A DNA stretch of 49,716 nucleotides, from IMG/VR virus record IMGVR_UViG_3300025146_000021, positions 1 to 49,716 of that record, one strand, 5' to 3'. Position 1 is the stretch's first letter; each line of letters starts with the position of its first letter. The position numbers were made by a program, and so were the translations under genes. The notes beneath the pieces were generated by a model. It saw only the letters and a program-made list of their open reading frames with translations, was not told the DNA's origin and searched no databases. Source of the stretch: a virus. Positions 1,738 through 49,716 of the stretch are shown here, piece after piece.

Positions 1738-2358
1738 ATGAGGCGAGTAACAGCGATTGTACTTGGTGTGCTGGTTGGTATCTTAGTCTATCTTGGCCCA
1801 TTCCAGAACATCGACTGGCCACGTGTTGCCTCTTGGTCAGAACAAAACATTCCCTTCTACTACCGATTCTTTCCCCCAGATGATCCGATCAAGAGATTTG
1901 TTTGGGACTTAGAGAAGAAGTATGATGCCGTAGATGTAGCTTGGGTCAGCCACACATATACCAATCAGGGATTTGGAGTGTGGTCTGTAGGCTTGATGTG
2001 GGTAGGTCAGCCAAACATGGACGAACAGGAGATTGTGCGGCAGGTCAATGGCGTTCTAGATGATGTTATGTTGTGGTATGTTGGGATTGCTGCTTACCCC
2101 GATGCCGTCTTGATCGTCTGGGGATCACAGGAGAAATCTCCCAATCCCGGCGGACTATATCGTGGCATCCTGTGTGATGCACGTGAAGTCCTCATACTGA
2201 GATACACAGATTCGTTCCACTGCCAGGCCATCTCCGGTCCTGATGAGGGTATACGGGTTATTGTCAAAGGCCCTCTGTGGGTAGGACGCCTGAGATTTAG
2301 GGAAACCTTCTTGTCTCCTCCTGTATCAATGCCAGTCCCAGATGGGCCACGGGAGTAG
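1738..2358 (+). CDS. Membrane-anchored or exported protein, function unknown
   Basis: 206 residues behind a clear AGGAG site (start ATG 1738). The N-terminus (MRRVTAIVLGVLVGILVYLG) is a positively charged stub plus one hydrophobic helix, fitting a signal anchor or uncleaved signal peptide. The rest is a soluble mixed domain with many tryptophans and no motif I recognise. It ends by overlapping the upstream edge of the FtsH-like gene, another membrane protein. The two may act at the same membrane, which is inference from position only. Confidence 0.6.
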   Translation: MRRVTAIVLGVLVGILVYLGPFQNIDWPRVASWSEQNIPFYYRFFPPDDPIKRFVWDLEKKYDAVDVAWVSHTYTNQGFGVWSVGLMWVGQPNMDEQEIVRQVNGVLDDVMLWYVGIAAYPDAVLIVWGSQEKSPNPGGLYRGILCDAREVLILRYTDSFHCQAISGPDEGIRVIVKGPLWVGRLRFRETFLSPPVSMPVPDGPRE

Positions 2359-2362
2359 ACTG

Positions 2363-5056
2363 ATGAGAGTCTGGCTGGCAGACCGCATTGCTGTATTGTA
2401 CTGGATCAAGGATTTCTTGCAGTCGCACCGTAAGTTGACCAGGATGATCCTCTGGATCATCGCAATAGTAGTTTATCTCAGCATCGCCTATCCGGCGACG
2501 TTGAGGACTATCCTTCAGTTCGTCTTTCAGATTGCCTTCGCTATCTCATTCATGGTCGTGCAGTTCGGGGCGCTGTTCTGGTTCATCTCCCGAACCCGAA
2601 CGACGGTGTTGCGGCCCGGAGACCCGAAGCAGATCACGTTCTCCGACTATCGCGGTCAGCCCTACTTGCTGACCCGTGTTCGGGAATGGCTGGCCCTCCT
2701 CAAGGACCAACGGGGTGAGTTCAAGGCCATGGGCGGCAGACAGCTAAGTGGCTTGCTCTTGACGGGACCGCCCGGAACCGGCAAGACACTACTCGCCAAG
2801 GCCATGGCCGGAGAGGCTGGGGTGGCCTTCGTGGGAACCGAGGGTTCTGGATTCCGTGGCATGTTCTGGGGCATGGACCCGTGTCCTCTAGACAGCCTGA
2901 TTCTTACTCCTACAGGGTGGACAACAATGGGAGAAATCGGGGAGGGAGACAAAATCATCGGGCGAGATGGCTTTGCATATAACGTAACCGGACTGTCGCA
3001 TGTCAAGATTGCTCCTATGTATCGTATAGAGATGGTGGACGGGGCTGTGGTCAAGGCGTCGGACACTCATCATTGGACTGTACGTAATGCTCATTCAAGA
3101 ATCATTGGCGATCCGTATTATGGTGAGGAGAGAACGAAGTCCACTGTCGAGTTGCGTTCCGGGAAACATCACGATGTTATCCCATTTCCGGACCCGATAC
3201 AGTTTGGGGAAAGGGAATTCCTTATCCCTCCCTACACGATGGGGGCGCTTCTTGGAGATGGAGCACTTTCCGGCGTGGCTAGAATAGACGGAGCGGATCT
3301 TGAGGTTCTATCCAGGGCACAATCGGAGTGCAGAGATCTTTGGAAGCAAGAGTTCCAGATTAGGTCATATCAGAGAAACTTTTACAGAATGTATTTCTCG
3401 TGGGATAAGCATGGCCCACTCGAAACACCTATTGCTTACGCCCTAAGAAGTCTTGGTCTCCGTGGCAGAAAGGCCAAAGACAAGTTCATCCCCGCTGAGT
3501 ATCTCTTCGGATCTGTTCCACAACGCGAGGCTCTGCTTCAGGGATTGTTGGACACCGACGGCACCGTTGGCATTACCAAGGGCAGAGGATATGTCAGTTA
3601 CTGCACAATCAGCGAGCATCTAAGAGATGGGATGATCGATCTTGTTTCCAGCCTTGGTGGTAGGGCATCTTACTGCCAGTCGAAGAGAGAGGATGGCGGT
3701 ACATGCTGGCAGATCAATCTCTGGGTTCCGCCCAGTATAAAGCCATTCTATCTGAAGCGGAAGGCCGAGAAATACCGCGGTGATCATCCGCGTGTTATGG
3801 GCCGCGCAATAAAATCTATTGAGTACGTGGGCGATGAGCCCTGTCGCTGCATCGCGACCGATGCCCCCGATCATCTTTACGTCATGGAGCACTACGTTCT
3901 TACTCACAACACGATGAAGATGATTTCGTTTGTGTCCAAGGCGCGCAAGCTGGCCCGCGAGTTTACCGCCTGTATATCGTATATCGACGAGCTCGATGCC
4001 GTTGGGATGTCTCGCGGCGGTGTCCAGGGCGGGCAAGTTCAGGGCGGCATGATGGGCGGCATGATGGGCGGCGGAATGATGAATGGGGCTCTGACCCGCC
4101 TGCTCTATGAGATGGATGGCATCGGGGAGTTCTCGGTGCAGGACCGCGCCCGCAACAAGGCCCGGCGGCTCTTGGGGTTGCCCGATCTGGAATTGGGCAC
4201 CGTGCTCTTCATGGGTTCGACCAACCGCCCCGACTCTCTCGACCCGGCTCTTGTGCGGGCTGGCCGATTCGACTGGGTAATGCCGGTGGACTCGCCCGAC
4301 CGCAAGGGACGGGAGGATGTGATCGGCTACTACGTCGGCTCTATCAAGTCCGCGGCTGTCGATGTGCCTGGCCTGGCTTCCTTGACGGCCTGGGCCACTC
4401 CGGCCCAGATCATGTCCGCCATTACGAAGGATTCCGTCCGCCGTGCGTTGGTCGAAGGTCGGCCCGAAGTGACGCAGCGCGACATCGAGCGTGCCCTTCA
4501 GGAACAGGTGGTTGGGTTACAATCTCCCATCTCAGACCTAGATCCTGAGCAGAAGCGCCAGATTTGCGTCCACGAGGCGGGGCACACTGTCGCCCAGTAC
4601 CATCTGCGCAAGGATGAGCGTATCGCCTATGTGTCGGCTGTCCGCACATCGAAGTCCCTGGGGTACATGTTGCCGACGCCCGTTACCGACCTTTACTCCA
4701 TATCGTTCTTGACGCTGAAGCGTGACATCATGATCGGGCTCGCCGGGCACATGGCGGTCATTCAGGTGATGAAGCAGCCGTGGTCTGGTGCATCGGGGGA
4801 CATCCGGTCTGTCCATGGCACCCTGATAAAGATGGCGAACAACGGCGCATTCGGAATGCCCAAGCTTGATGGGACCCCGACGGCTGCTGTGGAAGAGGCC
4901 GTCGCCCGTCTACTGAAGGACTGCGCATCAGAGCTGGAGGACCTCCTGATAAAGTACCAATACCAAGTTGAGGCTGTGGCCGCTGCCTTAGAGGATCAAG
5001 GCGAGATTAGTGGTAATGAAGCCGTACAGATTATCGAGGAAGCGAGGAAAGCATGA
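2363..5056 (+). CDS. FtsH-like membrane AAA+ zinc protease containing an intein
   Basis: FtsH extracts and degrades membrane and short-lived cytoplasmic proteins. Here 897 residues show two N-terminal membrane helices (about 28-45 and 50-74), Walker A GPPGTGKT (135-142), aromatic pore loop MFWGM (about 167-171), Walker B IDELD (541-545), the second region of homology with STNRPDSLDPALVRAGRFD, and the M41 protease motif HEAGH (737-741). D813 in GASGDI fits the third zinc ligand. A 343-residue intein occupies residues 174-516. Removing it leaves 554 residues, somewhat shorter than typical FtsH. I chose ATG 2363, which has GGGAG 8 nt upstream, over ATG 2342, which has none. The Walker B region is followed by an unusual Gly/Met-rich loop. 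Exteins are GC-rich (42 of 60 bases at 4141-4200) while the intein is not (24 of 60 at 3361-3420). Confidence 0.93.
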   Translation: MRVWLADRIAVLYWIKDFLQSHRKLTRMILWIIAIVVYLSIAYPATLRTILQFVFQIAFAISFMVVQFGALFWFISRTRTTVLRPGDPKQITFSDYRGQPYLLTRVREWLALLKDQRGEFKAMGGRQLSGLLLTGPPGTGKTLLAKAMAGEAGVAFVGTEGSGFRGMFWGMDPCPLDSLILTPTGWTTMGEIGEGDKIIGRDGFAYNVTGLSHVKIAPMYRIEMVDGAVVKASDTHHWTVRNAHSRIIGDPYYGEERTKSTVELRSGKHHDVIPFPDPIQFGEREFLIPPYTMGALLGDGALSGVARIDGADLEVLSRAQSECRDLWKQEFQIRSYQRNFYRMYFSWDKHGPLETPIAYALRSLGLRGRKAKDKFIPAEYLFGSVPQREALLQGLLDTDGTVGITKGRGYVSYCTISEHLRDGMIDLVSSLGGRASYCQSKREDGGTCWQINLWVPPSIKPFYLKRKAEKYRGDHPRVMGRAIKSIEYVGDEPCRCIATDAPDHLYVMEHYVLTHNTMKMISFVSKARKLAREFTACISYIDELDAVGMSRGGVQGGQVQGGMMGGMMGGGMMNGALTRLLYEMDGIGEFSVQDRARNKARRLLGLPDLELGTVLFMGSTNRPDSLDPALVRAGRFDWVMPVDSPDRKGREDVIGYYVGSIKSAAVDVPGLASLTAWATPAQIMSAITKDSVRRALVEGRPEVTQRDIERALQEQVVGLQSPISDLDPEQKRQICVHEAGHTVAQYHLRKDERIAYVSAVRTSKSLGYMLPTPVTDLYSISFLTLKRDIMIGLAGHMAVIQVMKQPWSGASGDIRSVHGTLIKMANNGAFGMPKLDGTPTAAVEEAVARLLKDCASELEDLLIKYQYQVEAVAAALEDQGEISGNEAVQIIEEARKA
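2882..3910 (+). other. Intein with LAGLIDADG homing endonuclease domain, inside the FtsH-like gene
   Basis: The insert begins with Cys (codon 2882) in a block starting CPLDSLILTPTGW. It ends with YVLTHN, the usual His-Asn terminus, followed by extein Thr (codon 3911). The block B Thr-x-x-His region is at SDTHHWT (nt about 3061-3081). Two dodecapeptide-like motifs, LLGDGAL (about nt 3247-3267) and GLLDTDGTVG (about 3542-3571), mark a LAGLIDADG nuclease. All residues expected for self-splicing are present. The extein junction (MFWGMDP, then TMKM) lies where FtsH proteins have the pore loop, a slowly evolving site favoured by inteins. Confidence 0.92.
4018..4083 (+). repeat. Gly/Met-rich short tandem repeats in the FtsH-like gene
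   Basis: The unit GGCGGCATGATG and close variants are repeated in frame and encode a flexible stretch of GGVQGG and GGMMGGMM type between Walker B and the helix ALTRLLYEMDG. Bacterial FtsH has a short glycine-rich loop here (the hinge between the DEID motif and the MLVEMDG helix), so this is an expansion of a natural loop rather than a new domain. Met-rich loops can be sticky or redox sensitive; the role here is unknown. Confidence 0.7.
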
Positions 5057-18583: not shown

Positions 18584-18692
18584 TATGATTTATCTAGGGA
18601 TATGGGTCTGGTTCTTGGAAAGAGAGATCGCCTTGTTGTGGCTATTGAGATGGGGATGGCTGTGGTTATCTCCCCAAAAGCAAAGAGCCTAG
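18567..18692 (+). CDS. 41-residue Trp-rich hydrophobic microprotein
   Basis: ATG 18567 follows a very strong GGAGGAGG site inside the previous gene. The product MQNLLSMIYLGIWVWFLE...LLWLLRWGWLWLSP contains seven tryptophans and looks like a membrane hairpin. Its stop is part of the left arm of the terminator hairpin, so it is the last gene of the early operon. It may be a small lysis-timing or membrane effector; nothing more can be said. Confidence 0.5.
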   Translation: MQNLLSMIYLGIWVWFLEREIALLWLLRWGWLWLSPQKQRA

Positions 18693-18708
18693 CACTGCTA
18701 GGCTCTTT
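18682..18708. terminator. Bidirectional terminator between early and late operons
   Basis: A perfect 11-bp stem (AAAGAGCCTAG and its complement CTAGGCTCTTT) closes a 5-nt loop. The right arm ends in TTT on the plus strand, and CTTT-TGCTTTT follows on the minus strand. It lies exactly where plus and minus transcription converge. Confidence 0.8.
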
Positions 18709-18757
18709 CCGTCTGGGCGTTGCTCACATAGAGGAAGCCCAGAAATATTTGCCCCGT

Positions 18758-33148: not shown

Positions 33149-36100
33149 CTATATCTTCTTCTGCGGTCCCCCTCTCCCTCCGCCCCCCAGCTTGTAGTTC
33201 TCCTTGATGATGGCATCAATCGTCGGGCCTGCTTTAGGATACTTCCTCCCCATCTCGCCAAGGTACTGCACGCCCGTAGCAGAAATAGGCACACCACTCT
33301 GCATATCTGCAATCTCCTTCTCCATTGTTGGACCGAGCAAGTCGAGCACCCATGTAGGCCACGGCGGGCGCTTGGCGTAGCCCCCCTTACCTAGCTGACC
33401 GGCCTTCAACAGTTGTCTGGCATCCAGTGTGGCTCTATACCCACCAGGTAGGATGGAGGGTGGGGGCGATGGCCTGCGAGCTGCCGTGCCCCTACCGCCT
33501 CCCCCTCCCCCTCCGCCCCCAGTTGTTCTGCTCGTGCTAGATTCTTCGCCAACTTCTGGTAGGTAGTATTTCTTCCAGATGGCGTGTGTCGTGGCAAAGT
33601 CCTCTCGTAGGTCAAAGTATTTCTGAATGCGCTCATAGTCCTCTGGATATGCCTCGCGGAATACCCTGCGTTCTTCACGATCTCGGCGCATATAGTATCC
33701 GAGCAGGCTATAGAAGTCTTCGCCCAGCTCCTTCTGCACCGACGCTCTGAATTCTGTGTTTTGTTCCTTGGCAAGAACGCGCTCTCGGAGATTGGCATCC
33801 GTTGGCACAGGAAGGCCCATCTGTTGAATGGTCTCCTTGACCTTTTCCTGGAAAGTACGGAATACTTCAGAATTGGAGAAGGAGGCAGAATCTCCGCCAG
33901 TAACATACCAGGCGCTCAGATGGTCCTCGTCGCCTCCAAGGTCCAAGAAGAGCCGCTTGAATTTGTTGTATTGATCTCCGGGCGATACGCGGCCCAGATA
34001 GTCCCATAGGTCGTCTTCTACGATATTCGCAATGCCCTCCTTCTCCGAAATCTTCTGTTCAATCTCATAGGTCTCGTTCATGTTGAGAATGCGCTGCAAT
34101 TGCTCATCAGTGAACTTCTCGCCGTAGATTTCCTTGACTTTGGCAATCAACTGCGCATCGGACGGTCTTCCACCAGGAAATTGGCGCAGGAACTCTCGTT
34201 CTGCTAATGTGCGCTCGGCGCCTTTTTTCCCCTCTACAGTATCCCAGTATGGGCTCCAGTAGATCTCCTCATAAGCACGGTTGAGTGCCTCCCACTCAGA
34301 GTCGTTCTCCTTCCAATAGTTCAGATAGCCATCACGACTCATCTCTTGTAGCAGGCGTCCCTCTACGTCCCTTGGATAGTTCAGTTCGGGATGCAGAAAG
34401 TTCAGTTCTTGGAACTTATGCCCCATTCTTTGTAGCAAGGCAGGGGCATTCTCTGCCAGGTCATCGAGCCATTTCTCTTTGCGTGCCTTGAATTCCAGAT
34501 AGGTCTCAGATGCAGTGTCCCACTGTGGCGACATATTCAGTAGAGCATGGAAAACAATACTGCGGAAATCATCAAAGACCAGCTTTTCTGGCTTGTATCC
34601 GATGAAGTTATTGGTTCGAGCATTGGGATATCGGCTATTGATTTGGGCTATCTTATCGGCATATGCATCTCGTACCGCCCCAATCGCCTCCCGCGACGCC
34701 CCTGTCGGCAGATTATTCATGGCGCTGGTGAATTCGGCCCGTGCTTGGGTTGTGGCTGTATAGTAAGCCTCTGAATCGATTTGATCCAGAATACCCTCCG
34801 CCACCTTCTGGTCACGCTCCTTCCCATAAAGTGGCAGGCCCTCTGGCGTCTGAACATAACCGATGACGTTGTACAGTTCGGACAGAAAGCCCTCGGCAGT
34901 ATCATAGCGATAGGTCAAGTAGTGGCTGTTTCTGGCATGTGCATCTTGGTCCATATCAAAAATGTTGGCCACAACCTCATTGTTGAGTGAGGATTTGAGC
35001 ATATTGATTTCGTTCCGAATTTGGAGCATTTTCACGTCTGCATCAGTGAACTGCTTGCCATAGAATCCTGTCATGTAGCCTGCGAGATTGCGCACCCAAT
35101 CAACCTTGTCTAGTTGGCGCACAGCCTCATTCCAAATGTGTGTCGTCTCCTCTGTGCTGAAACGTGTATCGACACTGATCGCCTGTCGTGCAACTTCCAC
35201 CAGGCGCAGCTTCTCTGCCTCGGACATCTCAGTGCCACTAATTGTTCGCAGTGTGTTGTAGAGAATTTGTCTCTCCACCAAGAATGATTTCCAAGACACT
35301 GCTGGGTTCATCATTTCAGTCGTGCCCAGCTTGGGAACAGCCATGCCCCGCAGATTTCTGTAGAGATCATTGAGGAAGAATCTGGGCACCAGTCCAAGTT
35401 GGGGAACGACAGACCCCTCTGGTATACGATTCTTGTCTAGTATATTCCGGCCATACAGCACCCACATGACCCAGGGTGGGGGTCTCATGCCGAAGGCAGA
35501 GGCGGCAGTATAGACGTAATGGCCGATTTGTTGGGTGGGTGTCATCCTTTCTTCTTCTGCCTCGGAAAGATTGTTCTTGAAGATGGGTAGGATATAGCGA
35601 GAGGACATGGCGGCGAGTGGATTGAACCAGATGTTTGTTCCAGGAATGGGAATATAGCCTTCAAGAGAGGGAAGTTGCTTGCCCGAACGTGTGGTCGCCC
35701 CCGCGGCGTAGGCCACGTTCCTAGATGCTTGTAAATACTTGACATGAAAGTTGAGCACCCAAGGTTTGGCAACCATCGTCTCTAGCCAGAAGGGAAGTGA
35801 TCGAGAGGGGAACATCCAGAATGGGGTGATGTTGTCCTTGATGAAGCGATCAAACTGGTTGAAGTCCTTATAGTCAATCATGATGCGATTCGTGCGAGGT
35901 ACTGCGCCCTCGAAGGTGTGGCCCAAGAACTCGCCCCCATTTGTAACGGCATCCATGCCGTCTGACATGAGCAGAGATCCCCTGTCCGCAAAGGCGCGTA
36001 GAGCTTGCTTATCGCTACGGCCTATTACCTTTGTGAACCAAGAGCCGTCGGCCAGTGATTTTTCCAGGGATTGCCACCACTCGCCAAGCGCACCCTTTGC

Positions 36101-39100
36101 TAGAGCCGAGTCAAAGTAGGCCGCACGAGCATCAGAAATGGAGGCTCGTACATTGAGAGGCAGCATATATTCCGGCACAGATCCAACGAAGGCTCTTTCG
36201 GTGAGCCCCTCCACACGAAGCACCTGGTGAAATTCATTGTCAATTTCACCCCACCACCTCTTCAGCACTTGCAGTTGGCTGACCAGATTGGGGTCGCTCT
36301 CTGTCAGGGCCATGAGTTCGTATGCTGCATTACGAAACGCCTCCGGGTCGTCGGGATCAATTTTGATTCCGGAGGCCTTGAATGCTGCTTCCCACTTTTC
36401 TCTAAGTGTGACAGATTTATCGTCTAGGGTATCGAGGATATTCTGCCAAATACGCTTTGCCTCTTCAACCTTAGAAATATCCGCGTAGAATTGGCTTGGG
36501 GTTACTTGAGAACGATAGAGGATGGTCTTCAGGGGGACGGTCTCGAACTCCTCCCTAGATGAAATATTGAAGATCTTCCTGAATTCGTCACCATGCCCCC
36601 GACGATCCACACCAAGCGCCCGGTTGCTTTGGGGCGTGATAAAGTCCACAAGCTCATTGCCATCCCAAGCGAAATCCCACCCAGATCTCTTCAGAAATGC
36701 AGATGCAGAGAGGGCGTCGGAGGATGTCACATAAGCCGCAATGCCCTGCCAGTCCTTCCTCTTGGCCATCTCAAGTAGTTCGTTGGCCACGCCCTCCGCC
36801 GTCTGGTATAGCCCCGCATTCACAACGAAGTACTGATTGAATTTATTGCCCGCCCCCGTGCCATGGATACCGACATGCAAGGGGCCGGGGTCAAGATACA
36901 ATCCCACCCGCCGCGCGGGGCCTCTGATAGCCCCGTCCAAAACACTCAGATAGGATTGCATGTAACTTGAGGCCATCAGGCCGCTGATATCAATCCTTCC
37001 CTCTTTGGCCAATTGGTTGACTGCATCATCGAAAGTCATCCCACCCTGCATAAGTTCTGCGACTTCTGGTATCTTGCCATATTCATCTACAATATCTTGA
37101 GATATCTTAGCAATCTCTCGGTTTAGCTTGGCCATGCGCCGTCCCGTTTCGATAGCATGGTCTCGTGCTGATTGTCTCAATTGTTCCGCAATCGCTGCCG
37201 AGATGTCCCCGTCGCCAACCGCCCTGTCGATAGCCTGGTTGGATTCAGCCAAATTCTGTTGCACAGACATTTCGATATTTTCTGCTGGCTCTGCACCGAT
37301 GGGACCTTCGGGAGATATCTCACCAACAACACGCTGCTCGATCTTCGGGCCCCCTCCCTCTTCTATATTCCTCAGAAGTTCCTCGGTGAGTTGGGTTTGC
37401 TCTAGTTCTTGTCCATGAGGCAGGTCAGCATGCAGACCCGACGCTCGGATTTGCTCTGCGTTTCGTAAGCGCGCGTCGAGGTGGTCATCAATTTCTGTCA
37501 ATAGCCTGTCGAAATAGGAGGTTATGGCCTCATCCGTGAAGTTCTTTTGATTGACAAGCATCTGTAGATCGCCAGATACGCGGCGAATGATGCTATCGGC
37601 CATGGCAGGCCCAACAGCCTTGGCCAGGCTGGCCCGAAGTTCTTCAGTCACGAAGAAGGAGTGGATGCCCCCCTTGCCCCGCAGGGCTTCCAAAAGTGCT
37701 CCCGGATGTCCTCCAGATCTCAGCCACGCTTCTTGGGCAATGCCCTTTAGGTGCTCAGGCAGCTTTGCTATTTCCTCTTCAATAGAAGGTCTCAGAATTC
37801 TGCGCATGAGATTGAGGTCTTCCACATAAAACTTGTGATAGACCCTGGCCCGCCAGACAAACTCGCTGGCGTTATTCAATGTGCGCAATGCCTCCAGCAC
37901 GCTGTTCTCTTTTATCGAGAAGATGCCCTTTCCGCGATTCCATCCCTCGCGGATAATGCTGAAGATATCTGTTCCGACTTCCTTGCTCAATATCTTGCGG
38001 CCAATGCTTTCTACGCTCCCCTCTTTCAGGCTGGCCCCGAAGCCCCCGGACCACGATTCCAACACAGTCCTATCTATATCGTCCAGAACTTGCTTTATAT
38101 TCAAAAGTGGATTGACCCCATGCACAACCGCCCGCCACGCATTGTCGATATAGTTGTAGACCGTGTAAGCGGGGCGGGCTGTTAGAACAAGCGGTATCCA
38201 GACCTTGCGCACCGCATCCTGAACAGACAGGTATGCCTGGGCAACAGCCACATCAATGCGGCCACCCTCTGCAATAAGCCTTCCTCCCTTTTCCGTGATA
38301 CCCCCAGTCTTCTTCAAGAACCACGCAATCAAGCCCTCATCCAGTGCCCTCGGAAGACCTTGGATCTTAGATCCGGCAAGGAATTCGCGCGCAACCCCCT
38401 CTTGTAGATATTGGATGAAGTTCCTTGGGCGTTGCGCCCATTCATCAGCTTGAAGTTTTATGAGATCGGCGGCCATATCAGCAGATCTCGTCTGAAGAAA
38501 CACCTGCCTGATCTCAGACGCCCGCTGTATAGCTTTGTCCACAGTAGCCTGTAGCTTCTGCCAGCTCATAAATTTAGTGATCGGTTCCAGGGCCGCGATG
38601 GCCCGCCTTCCCGGCCCCCACTTGGCCACATCGCTAATGATATCTTCGGCACCAGGAACAGAGGCCCGGAGCGCCTGTCCCAGGAGAGACTTGAATTCTC
38701 TGGCATCCTCAACGTTTGCTGCCAGCCGGACGGCCACATTATCGACCAGGCTGCCGTATTTCTTCGCCAAAGATATCGCTGCTCCCTCAGTGAAGAACTT
38801 GGACAGGTTTGCGTACATTGTTGGATGTACATGGGCCAGAACTTTGGTGGCCCCCTCGCCAAGAAATCCCAATCCTCCCCTCAACAGATTTGCAAGTGGC
38901 TTGAATGAGATGTAGTTTGTGACATCGAAGACCATATCGCCAACGAATTCTGATCCGAAATCGGTGAAGTAGGATGTAACCTGATCAATCTCGTGTGGCT
39001 TCAGCCAGCGGCCCTTCTGCATCATGGCGTCTACAATGGCACTATCAGCCGCCGCCTCAAGCTCCGGTCCATTTCCTGCCCAAATAAAGCTCCATCTTCC

Positions 39101-40696
39101 GGACATCGAGAAGCGGCGCGGATCTTGTTTTACTGCGGCCCAAGCATTCTGGAGGTAGTCTCTGGCCTGATCATAGAGTTTGTTGATCTCTTCCTGCGGG
39201 ATCTCTGCACGGAACTGTTCCGCCGCGTAGATCATAGCGAATCCAAGATTCGCATCAGAGATGGTTTGATCAAACTTCTTGAATTCCTCGGATCTCTGTC
39301 TTTCATATTGATCCGGGTCCGTGCCAGAGAGTTCTATGAGTTTGGCTTTTGCTGCCGCTCGCGCTTCCTCGGATGCTCCAGGAGGGAGGAGGATGGCTTC
39401 TTGGGTAGATACATTGGCCAGCCCAGCAACGGCCTGCCTGAAAGCTGCCAGGTGGGCCTGCTTGTTTTGTAGTGTTTGTATATTCTGTGGATAGAGAAGA
39501 GACGAGATTGGCATACCAGCTATGGTTGCCGTTTCAATGTCGCTGACATCCTTCCCAGATGCAATAGCCACCAAATCGGCGGTAGCTCTCAGGCCACCGA
39601 GAGCGATTGGCTTGGCGGCATATGTCCAATAGATTTCAGGTAGACGTGCTAGTACTCGCAGCTTATCAATGCCAGTAGCCTGATTTGCCTCATCAAAAAT
39701 CTTGTCTGTCTCAATAACAGCTTGGTAATATCTGCTTACCCATCCCGCCGTTCCCAGCCAGTCTTCCCCTATATCCCACAGCACCGGCAGGACCCTGAGT
39801 GGCACATCGAGAATTGGTTCTTTCTCAACAGCCTCTTGAGCAAATGCCCTTACTGGCCTGGTCAGAATATCAAGCCATGTCAGAACCGGCATGCCCTCAA
39901 CTGTGTGACCATAGAGCAGCTTTTCCATCCATTCCGCAATCTCTAGTTTGCCCTCTTCTACGACAGACATTGGCTGTACTTGGCCTAGGCGTCCCGACGA
40001 GTAGACAGTATCTACCCTGCCGCGCCAGCTTCCCTGCATCTCTTCCCTGCTCTTATCCAGATCCAAAAGCTGTTGGCGTCCTTCGGGCGTGCCTAGTGTC
40101 CCCGAACGCACAAGATCCAAGATCTGCCTATCGATATCTCGTATACGTTGCTCCTCCTGCTTGAGCGCATCAATGATCGTGTCGTTATCCAGTCCGCCCA
40201 TATTTGCGCGGGCGGTCTGTTGGCGGGATGCAGACGTTGCTCTCTCTGTCTGTGTCCGCTGTTCCACAAGGGCCTCTTTGTTGGCCTCACGAAAATCGAT
40301 GATAGCTTGGCGGAATTCTGGTGCATAGGGGGCAACCTGGCCCTTATATGCCTTCACTCCGGTCGCCTGGGGCGTGATAACCCGCCGCATCGGATCATAA
40401 TAGAGAGGTATATCCGTTACGGCAGTTGTCTGTTGCAAGTTTCGTTGGTCGAAGTACAGAGGAGACCCTGTATCGGGATATGGCGGGCCGAGAGGAACAG
40501 CAGGGGCAGCGGGAGCAGCAGGAGGGGCCTGCCGTGGTAGATATGGGGCACTGGGTTGTTGGGCGGGAATGTTCGTTCCCGGACGGGGCCTAAGACCAAT
40601 TCCCCCCTCCCCTGTCGGGGATGGTGCGGGAGGAGGGGGGAGTGGAAGCGGGGGCGGACCCTGCTGGGGTTTGCGTCGAGGCTTGAACGGAGGCAC
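33149..40696 (-). CDS. Giant 2,515-residue virion-associated protein
   Basis: One uninterrupted frame of 7.5 kb, about 15% of the window, starting at GTG 40696 with AGGAG 6 nt upstream. The N-terminal 80 residues are Pro-rich (PQQGPPPLPLPPPPAP). The bulk is helical, with Ala/Gln/Glu-rich coils and a few hydrophobic stretches (for example near DNITPFWMFPSRSLPFWLE). A run of nine glycines followed by RGTAARRPSPPPS lies near residue 2390. Lying between the portal and scaffold genes, it could be an internal ejection protein or a multi-domain minor head protein. I find no T7-like RNA polymerase or lytic transglycosylase motif. Confidence 0.7.
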   Translation of the reverse strand: MPPFKPRRKPQQGPPPLPLPPPPAPSPTGEGGIGLRPRPGTNIPAQQPSAPYLPRQAPPAAPAAPAVPLGPPYPDTGSPLYFDQRNLQQTTAVTDIPLYYDPMRRVITPQATGVKAYKGQVAPYAPEFRQAIIDFREANKEALVEQRTQTERATSASRQQTARANMGGLDNDTIIDALKQEEQRIRDIDRQILDLVRSGTLGTPEGRQQLLDLDKSREEMQGSWRGRVDTVYSSGRLGQVQPMSVVEEGKLEIAEWMEKLLYGHTVEGMPVLTWLDILTRPVRAFAQEAVEKEPILDVPLRVLPVLWDIGEDWLGTAGWVSRYYQAVIETDKIFDEANQATGIDKLRVLARLPEIYWTYAAKPIALGGLRATADLVAIASGKDVSDIETATIAGMPISSLLYPQNIQTLQNKQAHLAAFRQAVAGLANVSTQEAILLPPGASEEARAAAKAKLIELSGTDPDQYERQRSEEFKKFDQTISDANLGFAMIYAAEQFRAEIPQEEINKLYDQARDYLQNAWAAVKQDPRRFSMSGRWSFIWAGNGPELEAAADSAIVDAMMQKGRWLKPHEIDQVTSYFTDFGSEFVGDMVFDVTNYISFKPLANLLRGGLGFLGEGATKVLAHVHPTMYANLSKFFTEGAAISLAKKYGSLVDNVAVRLAANVEDAREFKSLLGQALRASVPGAEDIISDVAKWGPGRRAIAALEPITKFMSWQKLQATVDKAIQRASEIRQVFLQTRSADMAADLIKLQADEWAQRPRNFIQYLQEGVAREFLAGSKIQGLPRALDEGLIAWFLKKTGGITEKGGRLIAEGGRIDVAVAQAYLSVQDAVRKVWIPLVLTARPAYTVYNYIDNAWRAVVHGVNPLLNIKQVLDDIDRTVLESWSGGFGASLKEGSVESIGRKILSKEVGTDIFSIIREGWNRGKGIFSIKENSVLEALRTLNNASEFVWRARVYHKFYVEDLNLMRRILRPSIEEEIAKLPEHLKGIAQEAWLRSGGHPGALLEALRGKGGIHSFFVTEELRASLAKAVGPAMADSIIRRVSGDLQMLVNQKNFTDEAITSYFDRLLTEIDDHLDARLRNAEQIRASGLHADLPHGQELEQTQLTEELLRNIEEGGGPKIEQRVVGEISPEGPIGAEPAENIEMSVQQNLAESNQAIDRAVGDGDISAAIAEQLRQSARDHAIETGRRMAKLNREIAKISQDIVDEYGKIPEVAELMQGGMTFDDAVNQLAKEGRIDISGLMASSYMQSYLSVLDGAIRGPARRVGLYLDPGPLHVGIHGTGAGNKFNQYFVVNAGLYQTAEGVANELLEMAKRKDWQGIAAYVTSSDALSASAFLKRSGWDFAWDGNELVDFITPQSNRALGVDRRGHGDEFRKIFNISSREEFETVPLKTILYRSQVTPSQFYADISKVEEAKRIWQNILDTLDDKSVTLREKWEAAFKASGIKIDPDDPEAFRNAAYELMALTESDPNLVSQLQVLKRWWGEIDNEFHQVLRVEGLTERAFVGSVPEYMLPLNVRASISDARAAYFDSALAKGALGEWWQSLEKSLADGSWFTKVIGRSDKQALRAFADRGSLLMSDGMDAVTNGGEFLGHTFEGAVPRTNRIMIDYKDFNQFDRFIKDNITPFWMFPSRSLPFWLETMVAKPWVLNFHVKYLQASRNVAYAAGATTRSGKQLPSLEGYIPIPGTNIWFNPLAAMSSRYILPIFKNNLSEAEEERMTPTQQIGHYVYTAASAFGMRPPPWVMWVLYGRNILDKNRIPEGSVVPQLGLVPRFFLNDLYRNLRGMAVPKLGTTEMMNPAVSWKSFLVERQILYNTLRTISGTEMSEAEKLRLVEVARQAISVDTRFSTEETTHIWNEAVRQLDKVDWVRNLAGYMTGFYGKQFTDADVKMLQIRNEINMLKSSLNNEVVANIFDMDQDAHARNSHYLTYRYDTAEGFLSELYNVIGYVQTPEGLPLYGKERDQKVAEGILDQIDSEAYYTATTQARAEFTSAMNNLPTGASREAIGAVRDAYADKIAQINSRYPNARTNNFIGYKPEKLVFDDFRSIVFHALLNMSPQWDTASETYLEFKARKEKWLDDLAENAPALLQRMGHKFQELNFLHPELNYPRDVEGRLLQEMSRDGYLNYWKENDSEWEALNRAYEEIYWSPYWDTVEGKKGAERTLAEREFLRQFPGGRPSDAQLIAKVKEIYGEKFTDEQLQRILNMNETYEIEQKISEKEGIANIVEDDLWDYLGRVSPGDQYNKFKRLFLDLGGDEDHLSAWYVTGGDSASFSNSEVFRTFQEKVKETIQQMGLPVPTDANLRERVLAKEQNTEFRASVQKELGEDFYSLLGYYMRRDREERRVFREAYPEDYERIQKYFDLREDFATTHAIWKKYYLPEVGEESSTSRTTGGGGGGGGGRGTAARRPSPPPSILPGGYRATLDARQLLKAGQLGKGGYAKRPPWPTWVLDLLGPTMEKEIADMQSGVPISATGVQYLGEMGRKYPKAGPTIDAIIKENYKLGGGGRGGPQKKI

Positions 40697-46610: not shown

Positions 46611-46639
46611 TGGCCTATTGCATTAGTCATGTGGCCTAT
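46611..46639. promoter_or_regulatory. Two TGGCCTAT direct repeats, candidate operator
   Basis: TGGCCTAT occurs at 46611-46618 and 46632-46639, 21 bp apart, so on the same face of the helix. The first touches the -35 element and the second lies in the spacer of the plus-strand promoter, the expected place for a repressor. Confidence 0.45.
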
Positions 46640-46647
46640 GGTATACT
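46618..46647 (+). promoter_or_regulatory. Promoter of the zinc-ribbon methyltransferase gene
   Basis: TTGCAT (46618-46623), 18-bp spacer, TATACT (46642-46647). The start of RNA would be near 46654, so the in-frame ATG at 46651 would not be transcribed, supporting the ATG at 46732. Confidence 0.6.
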
Positions 46648-46657
46648 GGCATGAATG

Positions 46658-46716
46658 AAACGGGACGCAAGAATCCTCCACATCAAACTGCCCAGGATTT
46701 CTCTTGCGTCCCGTTT
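46658..46716 (+). promoter_or_regulatory. Leader hairpin (15-bp perfect stem) before the methyltransferase
   Basis: AAACGGGACGCAAGA (46658-46672) pairs fully with 46702-46716. An inner ATCCT/AGGAT stem (46673-46677 with 46694-46698) continues it. TTTATTTT overlaps and follows the right arm, as in an intrinsic terminator, then GGAGG and the ATG at 46732. It may stabilise the RNA 5' end or act as an attenuator; it lies only a few bases after the predicted transcription start. Confidence 0.7.
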
Positions 46717-46731
46717 ATTTTGGAGGATAGA

Positions 46732-47631
46732 ATGAATTGTCCAGTATGTAAAGGAGAGGTAGTAGACTTCACTACCCATGTTCCAATAGATCGTCGATCC
46801 ACAGAATTTGTGATCTGCAATACGTGTGGCTTGGTTTTTGCCAAAACTATGCCAGATCAGCAAGAACTCGATGAATACTACAGCACGGGCAAATATCGCG
46901 AGGAGGTTTCTGGCACAAGTGCAGTAACAGCAAAGAACCTCAAGGAGGAACAGGCGCGGGGTATGAGGATGGTATTCTATCTGAAACGCCATCTTCCAAG
47001 GATCAAGTCTCACTTGGACATTGGCAGCTCGACAGGCATATTCTTGGCCTGTATCTACGATGCCTACAACAGCAAGACCACCAAATCCATAGGCGTAGAA
47101 CCCGGCGAAGTATTCCGTACTTTCGCGGGGGATCGTACAAAGGAAGCGGAGGAAAAGCTAAAGATAAAGCTGCCGCAGAAATTCTATGCCAGTTTTGATG
47201 TTGTGCCCAAGAACCTCAGGTTTGATCTAATCTCAGTGATTCAGGTATTGGAGCACATGATAGATCCACTCTCCTTTCTTCGAGAGATGCGATCCAAGCT
47301 ATCTCCCGGCGGAGGCCATCTACTGATCGAAGTTCCCAATCTTTATGGGGGCAATGTATCGGCGCTTCAGTGGCCCCATCTCTGGGCACTTACGTCACAT
47401 TCCATACAGGCCCTCTTGGGAGCAGCTGGCCTTGATGCAGTCAATATCGAGACTTTTGGCAGCTTGCCCCCCTTCTATGGCGCTCCGTCCAGTCTTATGG
47501 TTCTTGCCCGCCCGCGGGATGCCGAGCGAGAAGTCCCCCGCAACGAGACCATGAGGCAATACAATCTCTACTTGCAGGATCGTGAGAGGATTATTGCAGC
47601 AGGAAGGGGGGCTGGGGGGCAGTTCGGGTAG
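46732..47631 (+). CDS. SAM-dependent methyltransferase with N-terminal zinc ribbon
   Basis: 299 residues from ATG 46732 behind TTGGAGG. The N-terminus has a zinc ribbon (CPVC at 3-6 and CNTC at about 29-32). The class I fold follows: LDIGSSTG (SAM motif I, about residue 94), VIQVLEHMIDP and LSPGGGHLLIEVPN. This build is found in methyltransferases of the sugar C-methyltransferase or capsule-modifying kind, so the substrate may be a sugar rather than DNA. It is a lone plus-strand gene inside a minus-strand region with its own promoter and terminator, as in moron cargo genes. A surface-modifying role is an inference. Confidence 0.8.
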   Translation: MNCPVCKGEVVDFTTHVPIDRRSTEFVICNTCGLVFAKTMPDQQELDEYYSTGKYREEVSGTSAVTAKNLKEEQARGMRMVFYLKRHLPRIKSHLDIGSSTGIFLACIYDAYNSKTTKSIGVEPGEVFRTFAGDRTKEAEEKLKIKLPQKFYASFDVVPKNLRFDLISVIQVLEHMIDPLSFLREMRSKLSPGGGHLLIEVPNLYGGNVSALQWPHLWALTSHSIQALLGAAGLDAVNIETFGSLPPFYGAPSSLMVLARPRDAEREVPRNETMRQYNLYLQDRERIIAAGRGAGGQFG

Positions 47632-47634
47632 TAC

Positions 47635-47663
47635 TTGACAAATTGTGTGACTTGTCGTACAAT
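47635..47663 (+). promoter_or_regulatory. Orphan sigma-70 promoter
   Basis: TTGACA (47635-47640), 17-bp spacer, TACAAT (47658-47663), matching in quality the scaffold-capsid promoter. It starts 4 nt after the methyltransferase stop and points at a terminator 29 nt beyond the -10, with no plus-strand gene after it. Confidence 0.75.
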
Positions 47664-47667
47664 AATT

Positions 47668-47730
47668 ACGTTTCTCCTCCTTCTCTCCTGCGCAAAAGCA
47701 GTGCCACCCCCGGCGCTGCTTTTGCCTTCT
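47668..47730 (+). ncRNA. Predicted 60-nt small RNA with anti-Shine-Dalgarno tract
   Basis: The predicted transcript starts near 47668-47670. It has a single-stranded pyrimidine 5' part including UUUCUCCUCC (47671-47680) and ends with the hairpin at 47692-47725. No start codon or frame of note is present. UUUCUCCUCC is perfectly complementary over 10 nt to the ribosome site (GGAGGAGAAA) of the minus-strand gene starting at 48585, and over 7 nt to the site of the gene starting at 48368. A translation-blocking RNA is the working idea. Confidence 0.5.
47692..47725. terminator. Bidirectional terminator between island and minus cluster
   Basis: GCAAAAGCAG pairs with CTGCTTTTGC and the stem continues after one T-G pair as GCC/GGC, 14 positions in all, with a 6-nt loop. 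CTTTTGC arms provide short U-rich ends in both directions. It ends both the plus transcript and the minus cluster that stops at 47739. Confidence 0.75.
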
Positions 47731-47738
47731 ACCTCATG

Positions 47739-47936
47739 CTATCGCCGCTTGAGCCAGTCTGTGAATCGCTTCTCTTGCTTGTCGGGCAGAATGCGCTCGA
47801 TGAATGAGTTATTCATATGATCATCCAATAAGTTTCTCGTCTCCATGAAGACAAAGTGCAAGAACAGTAGGGTGATCAGGCCGGGGGCGAGGAAGATCAT
47901 GCAGGCGAATAGAATTTCCACGACCTCACCTCCCAT
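47739..47936 (-). CDS. Small membrane protein, function unknown
   Basis: 65 residues with one hydrophobic helix (about 7-31, EILFACMIFLAPGLITLLFLHFVF) and a basic, soluble C-terminus ending DWLKRR, so probably a single-span protein. It overlaps the upstream gene by 11 nt. The start is uncertain: ATG 47936 lies very near GAGGGAG, while GTG 47921 has GGAGG at better spacing. Confidence 0.55.
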   Translation of the reverse strand: MGGEVVEILFACMIFLAPGLITLLFLHFVFMETRNLLDDHMNNSFIERILPDKQEKRFTDWLKRR

Positions 47937-48174
47937 GCTCCCTCTTTGCTTCTAGGAGGCGTCGGTCCTCACCCATAGTCCATCTGGCCCATGATCTCTT
48001 ATAAGCCTGCATGTGTTGCTTGCAGTAGGGAGCGAGCCCGTCCCAGCGTGACGTATACTTGGCGAACTCGGCTATGTGGGCGAAGTGCCCTCTAGAGCCC
48101 GGCCCGCCTCCCCTTGGGCACCATTTCATGCCATCTGGGGTCTTCATGCCTGATGTATTCTGTCCGCGTCTCAT
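47926..48174 (-). CDS. Small basic protein with possible zinc site
   Basis: 82 residues from ATG 48174 (TGATG overlap; AGGAG 7 nt upstream), preferred to ATG 48180, which is too close to that site. WCPRGG early and a later KYTSRWDGLAPYCKQHM give a Cys...CxxH pattern like small HNH-associated zinc proteins (DGL..YCK.H). The C-terminus is basic. No function is known. Confidence 0.55.
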   Translation of the reverse strand: MRRGQNTSGMKTPDGMKWCPRGGGPGSRGHFAHIAEFAKYTSRWDGLAPYCKQHMQAYKRSWARWTMGEDRRLLEAKREHGR

Positions 48175-48368
48175 CACCATACTCCTGTGCTAGTGACATT
48201 GGTGGTACTGATCCTCCAGATGGGAAATGAATCGGAATCTACTACCTCATCGTACTCTGAAATTTCTGCATCAACTGGACTGCCACATCCATCACACTTG
48301 AGTACTCCTTCGTAATTATCTCCAAAGACGGTGCTGGCACCACAGTAGTCACATTGTCCCTTGAGCAT
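48174..48368 (-). CDS. Small zinc-ribbon protein
   Basis: 64 residues, TAGGAGGAAGACA site. CDYCG (residues 6-10) and CDGCG (25-29) form a zinc ribbon; the rest is acidic. It is TGATG-coupled to the next gene. Its ribosome site has 7-nt complementarity to the predicted small RNA. Confidence 0.65.
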   Translation of the reverse strand: MLKGQCDYCGASTVFGDNYEGVLKCDGCGSPVDAEISEYDEVVDSDSFPIWRISTTNVTSTGVW

Positions 48369-48378
48369 TGTCTTCCTC

Positions 48379-48585
48379 CTAATTCATAATGAGTGGCACA
48401 TCATAGTATTGTAGGCTATTGCCTTCCAGATCGACGAGCAGATAGCACGGAAAGAACGAAGTGCATCGCACTTCTCTACCCATTATCCGCTTCTCCCCCA
48501 CAAAAATGTCCGTATTTGAATGCAATGGAAATCTGGTTTTTATAGAAATCGTGCCCATAACAATTCTCGACTGCTCTTCAGACAT
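48379..48585 (-). CDS. Small beta-rich protein, function unknown
   Basis: 68 residues (MSEEQSRIVMGTISIKTRF...) with GGAGGAGAAA immediately before the ATG. That 10-nt site is the perfect complement of the pyrimidine tract of the predicted small RNA at 47671-47680. No motif or membrane segment is visible. Confidence 0.55.
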   Translation of the reverse strand: MSEEQSRIVMGTISIKTRFPLHSNTDIFVGEKRIMGREVRCTSFFPCYLLVDLEGNSLQYYDVPLIMN

Positions 48586-48597
48586 TTTCTCCTCCGG

Positions 48598-48810
48598 CTA
48601 GGCTAGCAGATCGAGGACGACGTTGAGGGCCCTTTTGAGAAAGGGATATGGACACATGCCGTCGTGGCCCTGTTTTCTATCACACCAAGGACAGGTGGGG
48701 GCTGCGTCGGCAAGATGCAGCAGCTCCTGTATATTCATGCCCTGCGGCCAATCTGTATTGATCAGCATGTCATACGCTTTTTGATATTGAGCATCTGCAT
48801 GTCTCGTCAT
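48598..48810 (-). CDS. Small protein with Cys pairs, function unknown
   Basis: 70 residues, ATGA-coupled to the microprotein upstream. CPWCDRKQGHDGMCPYPFLK (about residues 40-60) has the CPWC...H...C spacing of a small zinc-binding module, as in proteins that advise on phage sample-type zinc fingers of unknown use. The rest is helical. Confidence 0.55.
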   Translation of the reverse strand: MTRHADAQYQKAYDMLINTDWPQGMNIQELLHLADAAPTCPWCDRKQGHDGMCPYPFLKRALNVVLDLLA

Positions 48811-48923
48811 CTCGGAGCTCCCAGCACCGAGGCCAGGATAATCAGAAAGAGTACAAGGAAGGCTGGCCCCATCAGATCTTTCTTGCTGCCGTTGTTGTAT
48901 GGATGAAATGGATCTCGAAACAT
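48807..48923 (-). CDS. 38-residue membrane microprotein
   Basis: ATG 48923 has GGGAGG upstream and starts 1 nt after the peptidase stop; its TGA overlaps the next ATG as ATGA. MFRDPFHPYNNGSKKDLMGP is followed by one hydrophobic helix (AFLVLFLIILASVLG). The exact fit between two genes makes it credible. No function is known. Confidence 0.5.
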   Translation of the reverse strand: MFRDPFHPYNNGSKKDLMGPAFLVLFLIILASVLGAPR

Positions 48924-48924
48924 G

Positions 48925-49623
48925 TCAGCCTCCCGCCTCTCTGATAAGATCTTCGATATGCCACAAGATTAGCTTATGCACATTGACTCTTGCTCTTAGT
49001 GGCCACATTGCTGGTGTCTCAACAACCGTCACTGGCACTCCCGTCTCCTGCCAGATCCAATCATCAATCGAATCATCCTCCACAGCCTGTATCAGAGCGC
49101 CCTCGACCTTCTCGCCAAACCTAGACTCCCACGCCGACAGCAGCGGCACCTGATTATTCGCCAGCATAGCAATGAGTGCCCGCTGCACCTGGAGATTGCC
49201 GCCGTGTTGGTAGAGATATACTCCATTGAGTGCCGCCAGATCAATCAGATCTCCATCAATGGCCTGACCCTGTGCCACCGGCGAGCCGTCATCTTCATGT
49301 AGATCAAGCACGAATGCTGGTTCCTCGTCTACGATCCAATCTATGAGCTCCCGAACGAACATGAAGTTCCCGCGCACTCCAAGATAGGGTGATGTACCAA
49401 ATCTAATCCGCTCTGATAGGCCGTCCAGGTTTGCCTGAGGTATGATAAGGCAAGTGAGATCGGGTGACAGGAAGGGCAGAGTTTCCATGATCGCCTGCGG
49501 CCCGGCTGGTTCCTCTCCATGGATGCCAGATAGAATGACAACTGGCACAGTCTTGCCCTCTTGATAGAAGGCCATCACATTGCCCAGAGAGAGTATCTCC
49601 CATCGATTCATCGCTCGATACAT
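48925..49623 (-). CDS. Zinc carboxypeptidase-like protein (M14 / AstE-AspA type)
   Basis: 232 residues from ATG 49623 (AGGAGGTGGTC); an in-frame start 36 nt earlier would lie in the promoter. The zinc site is present: H35-G-E-E38 in LSGIHGEEPAG and H109 in VLDLHED, with VVETP near residue 210 carrying the catalytic Glu. Such proteins remove C-terminal residues or deacylate amino acids. It has no signal peptide. In a phage it may act on peptidoglycan stem peptides or host peptides; the substrate is unknown. It is the first gene of a promoter-driven minus cluster. Confidence 0.8.
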   Translation of the reverse strand: MYRAMNRWEILSLGNVMAFYQEGKTVPVVILSGIHGEEPAGPQAIMETLPFLSPDLTCLIIPQANLDGLSERIRFGTSPYLGVRGNFMFVRELIDWIVDEEPAFVLDLHEDDGSPVAQGQAIDGDLIDLAALNGVYLYQHGGNLQVQRALIAMLANNQVPLLSAWESRFGEKVEGALIQAVEDDSIDDWIWQETGVPVTVVETPAMWPLRARVNVHKLILWHIEDLIREAGG

Positions 49624-49649
49624 GACCACCTCCTGTGCTAGATATCCGT

Positions 49650-49678
49650 ATCCTATCACAATTGTTTCATGATGTCAA
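49650..49678 (-). promoter_or_regulatory. Promoter of the carboxypeptidase cluster
   Basis: Minus strand TTGACA (49673-49678), 17-bp spacer, TAGGAT (49650-49655). The RNA would begin near 49643, about 20 nt before the start codon. It is back to back with the promoter at 49684-49712. Confidence 0.65.
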
Positions 49679-49683
49679 TACCC

Positions 49684-49712
49684 TTGACACAGAGAAACAG
49701 ACATTGTATACT
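49684..49712 (+). promoter_or_regulatory. Strong sigma-70 promoter at the window end
   Basis: TTGACA (49684-49689), 17-bp spacer, TATACT (49707-49712). Nothing follows on the plus strand within the window. If the molecule is circular, RNA starts near position 3 and reads the early operon beginning at 76, which otherwise has no visible promoter. Confidence 0.8.
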
Positions 49713-49716
49713 ATGA

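Follow-up and report, generated by a model that had tools for sequence, protein, structure and literature searches.

A probable orphan promoter ahead of a predicted two-way terminator, and a candidate ~61-nt RNA, in an unclassified phage

Introduction

The RNAs OOP of phage lambda and sar of phage P22 have a terminator end and an intergenic context. In lambda, the pR'-tR' leader RNA comes from a promoter closely followed by a terminator. OOP (77 nt) and sar (68/69 nt) are phage antisense/regulatory RNAs (review PMC12197685). In streptococci, the csRNAs of 51-202 nt were found via an intergenic promoter followed by a terminator; these RNAs form recurring families, are driven by CiaR promoters and contain, in addition, an element directed against the start codon, in most cases CAU (PMC3091779).

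Here, we describe a promoter-hairpin unit in a virus record of 49,716 bases, which was analysed as a whole (the window) and belongs to an unclassified phage. As in lambda pR'-tR', a promoter is followed by a close terminator, but there is no same-strand downstream gene.

Results

Gene context

Terminase, major head protein, DNA polymerase A and DnaB-like helicase genes are present in the window, with plus-strand genes from position 76 to about 18.7 kb and minus-strand genes from about 46.5 to 18.8 kb. The unit sits in a 107-nt gap between a methyltransferase gene and a converging minus cluster (Table 1).

Table 1. Features of the promoter-hairpin locus and its surroundings
Feature	Position	Strand	Basis or remark
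SAM-dependent methyltransferase gene (Methyltransf_23), lone plus-strand gene	46732..47631	+	transcript would end at hairpin
Orphan sigma-70-type promoter, TTGACA-N17-TACAAT	47635..47663	+	11/12 consensus match; predicted
Predicted ~61-nt RNA	47670..47730	+	placed by where the promoter and the hairpin lie; RNA fold
19-nt uninterrupted pyrimidine run UUUCUCCUCCUUCUCUCCU, anti-Shine-Dalgarno-like	47671..47689	+	unpaired in predicted RNA
14-bp hairpin GCAAAAGCAGTGCC/GGCGCTGCTTTTGC, putative bidirectional intrinsic terminator between convergent units	47692..47725	.	fold, terminator scan
Converging cluster, small genes and a 244-aa gene	47739..49659	-	promoter 49678-49650 (minus)
Ribosome site GGAGGAGAAA of gene starting at 48585, earlier proposed target	48586..48595	-	10-nt match, not significant

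The methyltransferase leader (46618-46731, +) contains an extended -10 promoter, TTGCAT-N18-TATACT with TG before it, and then an inverted repeat of 15 perfectly matched bp (46658-46672/46702-46716). After the repeat comes TTTATTTT and directly behind that the Shine-Dalgarno (SD) sequence; judged by its sequence, this repeat resembles a terminator or attenuator. Elsewhere in the window, an FtsH-like protein (2342-5056, +) has AAA and peptidase M41 parts with a LAGLIDADG/homing-endonuclease region between them, which is probably an intein; similar stretches are annotated in the terminase genes of phages. A giant gene of 2,413-2,515 aa (33149-40696, -) has the terminase-side genes on one side and the gene for the major head protein on the other, and a near-consensus promoter (33144 minus) is found just after it. 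At the right end, the promoter TTGACA-N17-TATACT (49684-49716; L003:6948-7311) abuts an ATG and has no room for a leader.

The orphan promoter

The near-consensus promoter reported in the initial annotation is present as claimed, 4 nt after the methyltransferase stop codon: TTGACA (47635-47640) and TACAAT (47658-47663) are separated by a 17-nt spacer. Sites with at least 11/12 matches to the promoter consensus number four in the window versus 0.5 expected, and all of them fall in gene gaps. Three head operons (46569 minus for the late genes, 33144 minus and 49684 plus) and the fourth is the orphan one. In shuffles of the promoter's own 60-nt gap, an 11/12 match arose in only 0.035% of cases (P = 0.00035; about 0.01 after 36 gap-strand tests). 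No comparable promoter is present at the other convergent junction of the phage (18584-18757). Because of the excess of consensus sites, the gap-shuffle P, the z-score of the hairpin and the rare pyrimidine run (both below), a chance origin appears very unlikely and the orphan promoter is probably real.

A hairpin shared by two converging units

The hairpin begins 28 nt beyond the promoter end and has a folding energy of -25.7 kcal/mol on the plus strand and -23.5 kcal/mol on the minus strand; together with the leader it folds with z = -7.9. In a scan of the whole window, no more than two terminators rated as strong, at 18680-18710 and at 47691-47726. Both are symmetrical and each lies at a convergent junction. 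A stable hairpin, a T-run on both strands, if a short one, and convergent genes on either side are the features of a bidirectional intrinsic terminator. The T-run consists only of TTTT, which is paired with AAAA inside the stem and followed by GCCTTCT, and the resulting weak U-tract is alike in both directions. The earlier description as a strong hairpin terminator thus holds for the stable 14-bp stem but not for the U-tract, and the strength of termination is uncertain because the T-run is short. The last stop codon of the minus cluster lies 14 nt from the hairpin. Given this distance and the symmetrical terminators at the convergent junctions, we infer that the main job of the hairpin would be to end both converging units, the methyltransferase gene and the minus cluster. 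A hairpin that exists for the sake of the small RNA is not supported, as it adjoins the stop of the minus cluster and would serve both units.

The predicted RNA and its leader

Assuming a start 7 nt past the -10 box and an end after the hairpin tail, the unit would give a ~61-nt RNA whose 5' 22 nt are single-stranded in the predicted fold. Pyrimidine runs of at least 19 nt occur twice in the window versus 0.33 expected, and the run in this leader ties for the longest. As had been stated, no plus-strand gene follows: none starts after the hairpin before the minus cluster, and none for 2 kb. A promoter and terminator of its own and no coding capacity are what is expected of a trans-acting small regulatory RNA, here as a prediction only. 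Rfam covariance models gave no match at the locus. The purine-rich complement of the run was considered as the ribosome site of a minus-strand gene and rejected, as there is only a 23-codon TTG frame. What survives of the original reading as an orphan promoter-terminator pair making a small RNA is the real-looking promoter and the short untranslated product, but not a hairpin dedicated to that RNA.

Pairing with ribosome sites

The leader was compared with the 62 called ribosome sites of the phage, with shuffles and the 16S rRNA tail as comparison. It pairs over at least 7 bases at 13 of the 62 sites versus a shuffle mean of 4.3 (P = 0.017), and the 16S rRNA tail reaches 11-12 sites with at least 7 paired bases in the same test. 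The mean pairing energy between leader and ribosome sites was not significant (P = 0.08). Since the number of paired sites is above that of the shuffles and close to that of the 16S tail, the leader is anti-SD-like in aggregate, and the resemblance first proposed is borne out for the leader as a whole. The initial annotation had further singled out the gene starting at 48585 as a target. UUUCUCCUCC in the leader is indeed perfectly complementary to GGAGGAGAAA, which abuts the start codon, but this 10-nt match is reached or exceeded by 6% of composition shuffles (P about 0.06) and by about 14/130 pyrimidine windows of the genome (about 11%). By duplex energy the 48585 site ranks only 11 among the phage ribosome sites, ten of which pair more strongly, with 6698 as the best. 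Pairing above chance at a named mRNA was therefore not found among these sites, and the claim of a special target fails.

Relatives and search for a family

The sole relative found is a 7,870-base contig that, one gap aside, matches the window at 100% identity across 7,539 bases; because it shows no divergence from the window, it is uninformative on conservation. This contig extends about 326 bases beyond the right end of the window. Protein scans of viral contigs for relatives returned only the identical contig or nothing, and among phage records the matches were limited to distant ones of terminase and capsid. The promoter plus UUUCUCCUCC pattern matched one unrelated phage contig (L007), in which a 12/12 promoter is followed by the core, extended to UUUCUCCUCCUU, and by a strong terminator. 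This unit lies just after another methyltransferase-like gene, and beyond the terminator come further same-strand genes. No shared protein was detected between L007 and our phage in the stretch compared. L007 is a suggestive single parallel and no proof of a family.

A relaxed motif pattern was found at 44 loci in a viral scan and 44 loci in a genome scan, and the control was a motif matched in composition but not complementary to the SD. There was no enrichment: a terminator accompanied promoter and motif in 3 of 34 distinct viral hits versus 1 of 30 for the control (Fisher P = 0.62), and the motif hits were not clearly above the motif-less promoters of the same loci, where 5 of 146 had a terminator (3.4%). 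Terminators after motif hits occur in L007, L022/L023, L013, L094 and L063, and in 16 of the 34 viral hits the motif appears to be an SD plus start codon read in antisense. L022 at first resembled a second convergent copy, but its promoter is weak (TATTGT) and the resemblance may be due to chance. Among 400 genomes of Chloroflexota, considered as host, there was no pattern match except one already-known hit. Two unrelated contigs, at L013:2071-2021 (-) and L094:7804-7752 (-), have TCACCATTTCTCCTCC and ATTAGTA in common at the same spacing; in both, CACCA could pair with UGGUG into a hairpin whose loop holds the anti-SD, and a terminator lies downstream of each. A Clostridia contig (L070:700-820, +) carries a perfect promoter and UUUCUCCUCC in a leader ahead of the SD AGAGGAGAAAAACAUG of its own gene, and this looks like an SD-sequestering leader.

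Discussion

The reading we favour, with somewhat better than even confidence, is a shared two-way terminator into which a genuine promoter fires, yielding a ~61-nt RNA. RNA polymerase would start at about 47670 from a host-type (sigma-70) promoter inside the convergent gap, transcribe an unpaired, pyrimidine-rich leader of 22 nt and then the terminator hairpin, and stop at this hairpin to release the untranslated RNA. If it is more than a by-product, the RNA would most likely pair weakly and broadly with SD sequences and not with 48585 alone. Promoter match, hairpin, convergent layout and SD complementarity can be read from the sequence; transcription, termination efficiency and any regulation are inferred. 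The locus could instead be a bidirectional terminator only, with a promoter that is a relic or negligible, a pyrimidine run that arose by chance or helps termination, and no functional RNA. The convergent layout, the two-way hairpin and the lack of motif enrichment agree with this, but the promoter is rare in shuffles of its own gap even after correction for all gap-strand tests, and we regard a mere terminator as rather doubtful.

Other explanations appear far less probable. The promoter-proximal terminator might await antitermination in the style of lambda pR'-tR', which would extend transcription antisense to the minus cluster. The layout is like that of such promoter-terminator pairs and same-strand genes do follow the terminator in L007; still, with no plus-strand gene within 2 kb and a separate promoter (49684) for the next plus unit, this seems improbable for our phage. 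A small phage RNA acting specifically to block translation at the 48585 gene and its minus-cluster neighbours could draw on the perfect match abutting the start codon, yet the frequency of such matches in shuffles and pyrimidine windows and the ten stronger sites make it very improbable. Equally slim is the chance that a ~60-nt decoy of the 16S tail lowers translation of many mRNAs and that the unit evolved separately in unrelated phages, e.g. L007. The run itself, unstructured, C-rich, G-poor and just before the hairpin, could be a rut-like site where Rho binds and helps to terminate transcription of the methyltransferase gene. However, at about 22 nt it is much shorter than usual rut sites and its role as such would leave the promoter unexplained, and we give this idea hardly any credence.

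Turning back to the orphan transcript, it is fairly likely that the ~61-nt RNA is made, while a function as trans-acting regulator is only a tentative suggestion. What has been observed so far speaks for an orphan transcript at a terminator between converging genes and not for a regulator. Overall, the transcript is probably real and represents an ordinary candidate for a small RNA with a putative function.

The predicted RNA has the unpaired anti-SD stretch in common with the csRNAs, and the same search logic of promoter and terminator leads to both. However, it has neither the anti-start element of the csRNAs, nor their recurrence as families or their CiaR promoters; of the two elements expected in an unpaired region of a csRNA-like anti-TIR RNA, the leader has the anti-SD but lacks a CAU. 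The antisense targets of OOP and sar are defined, whereas the predicted RNA has no overlapping target. Still, it shares with both that it would be very short and phage-encoded, and with OOP a promoter of its own. If transcribed, this very small anti-SD RNA candidate would add to the few small RNAs listed for phages and offer a compact unit for testing general translation control.
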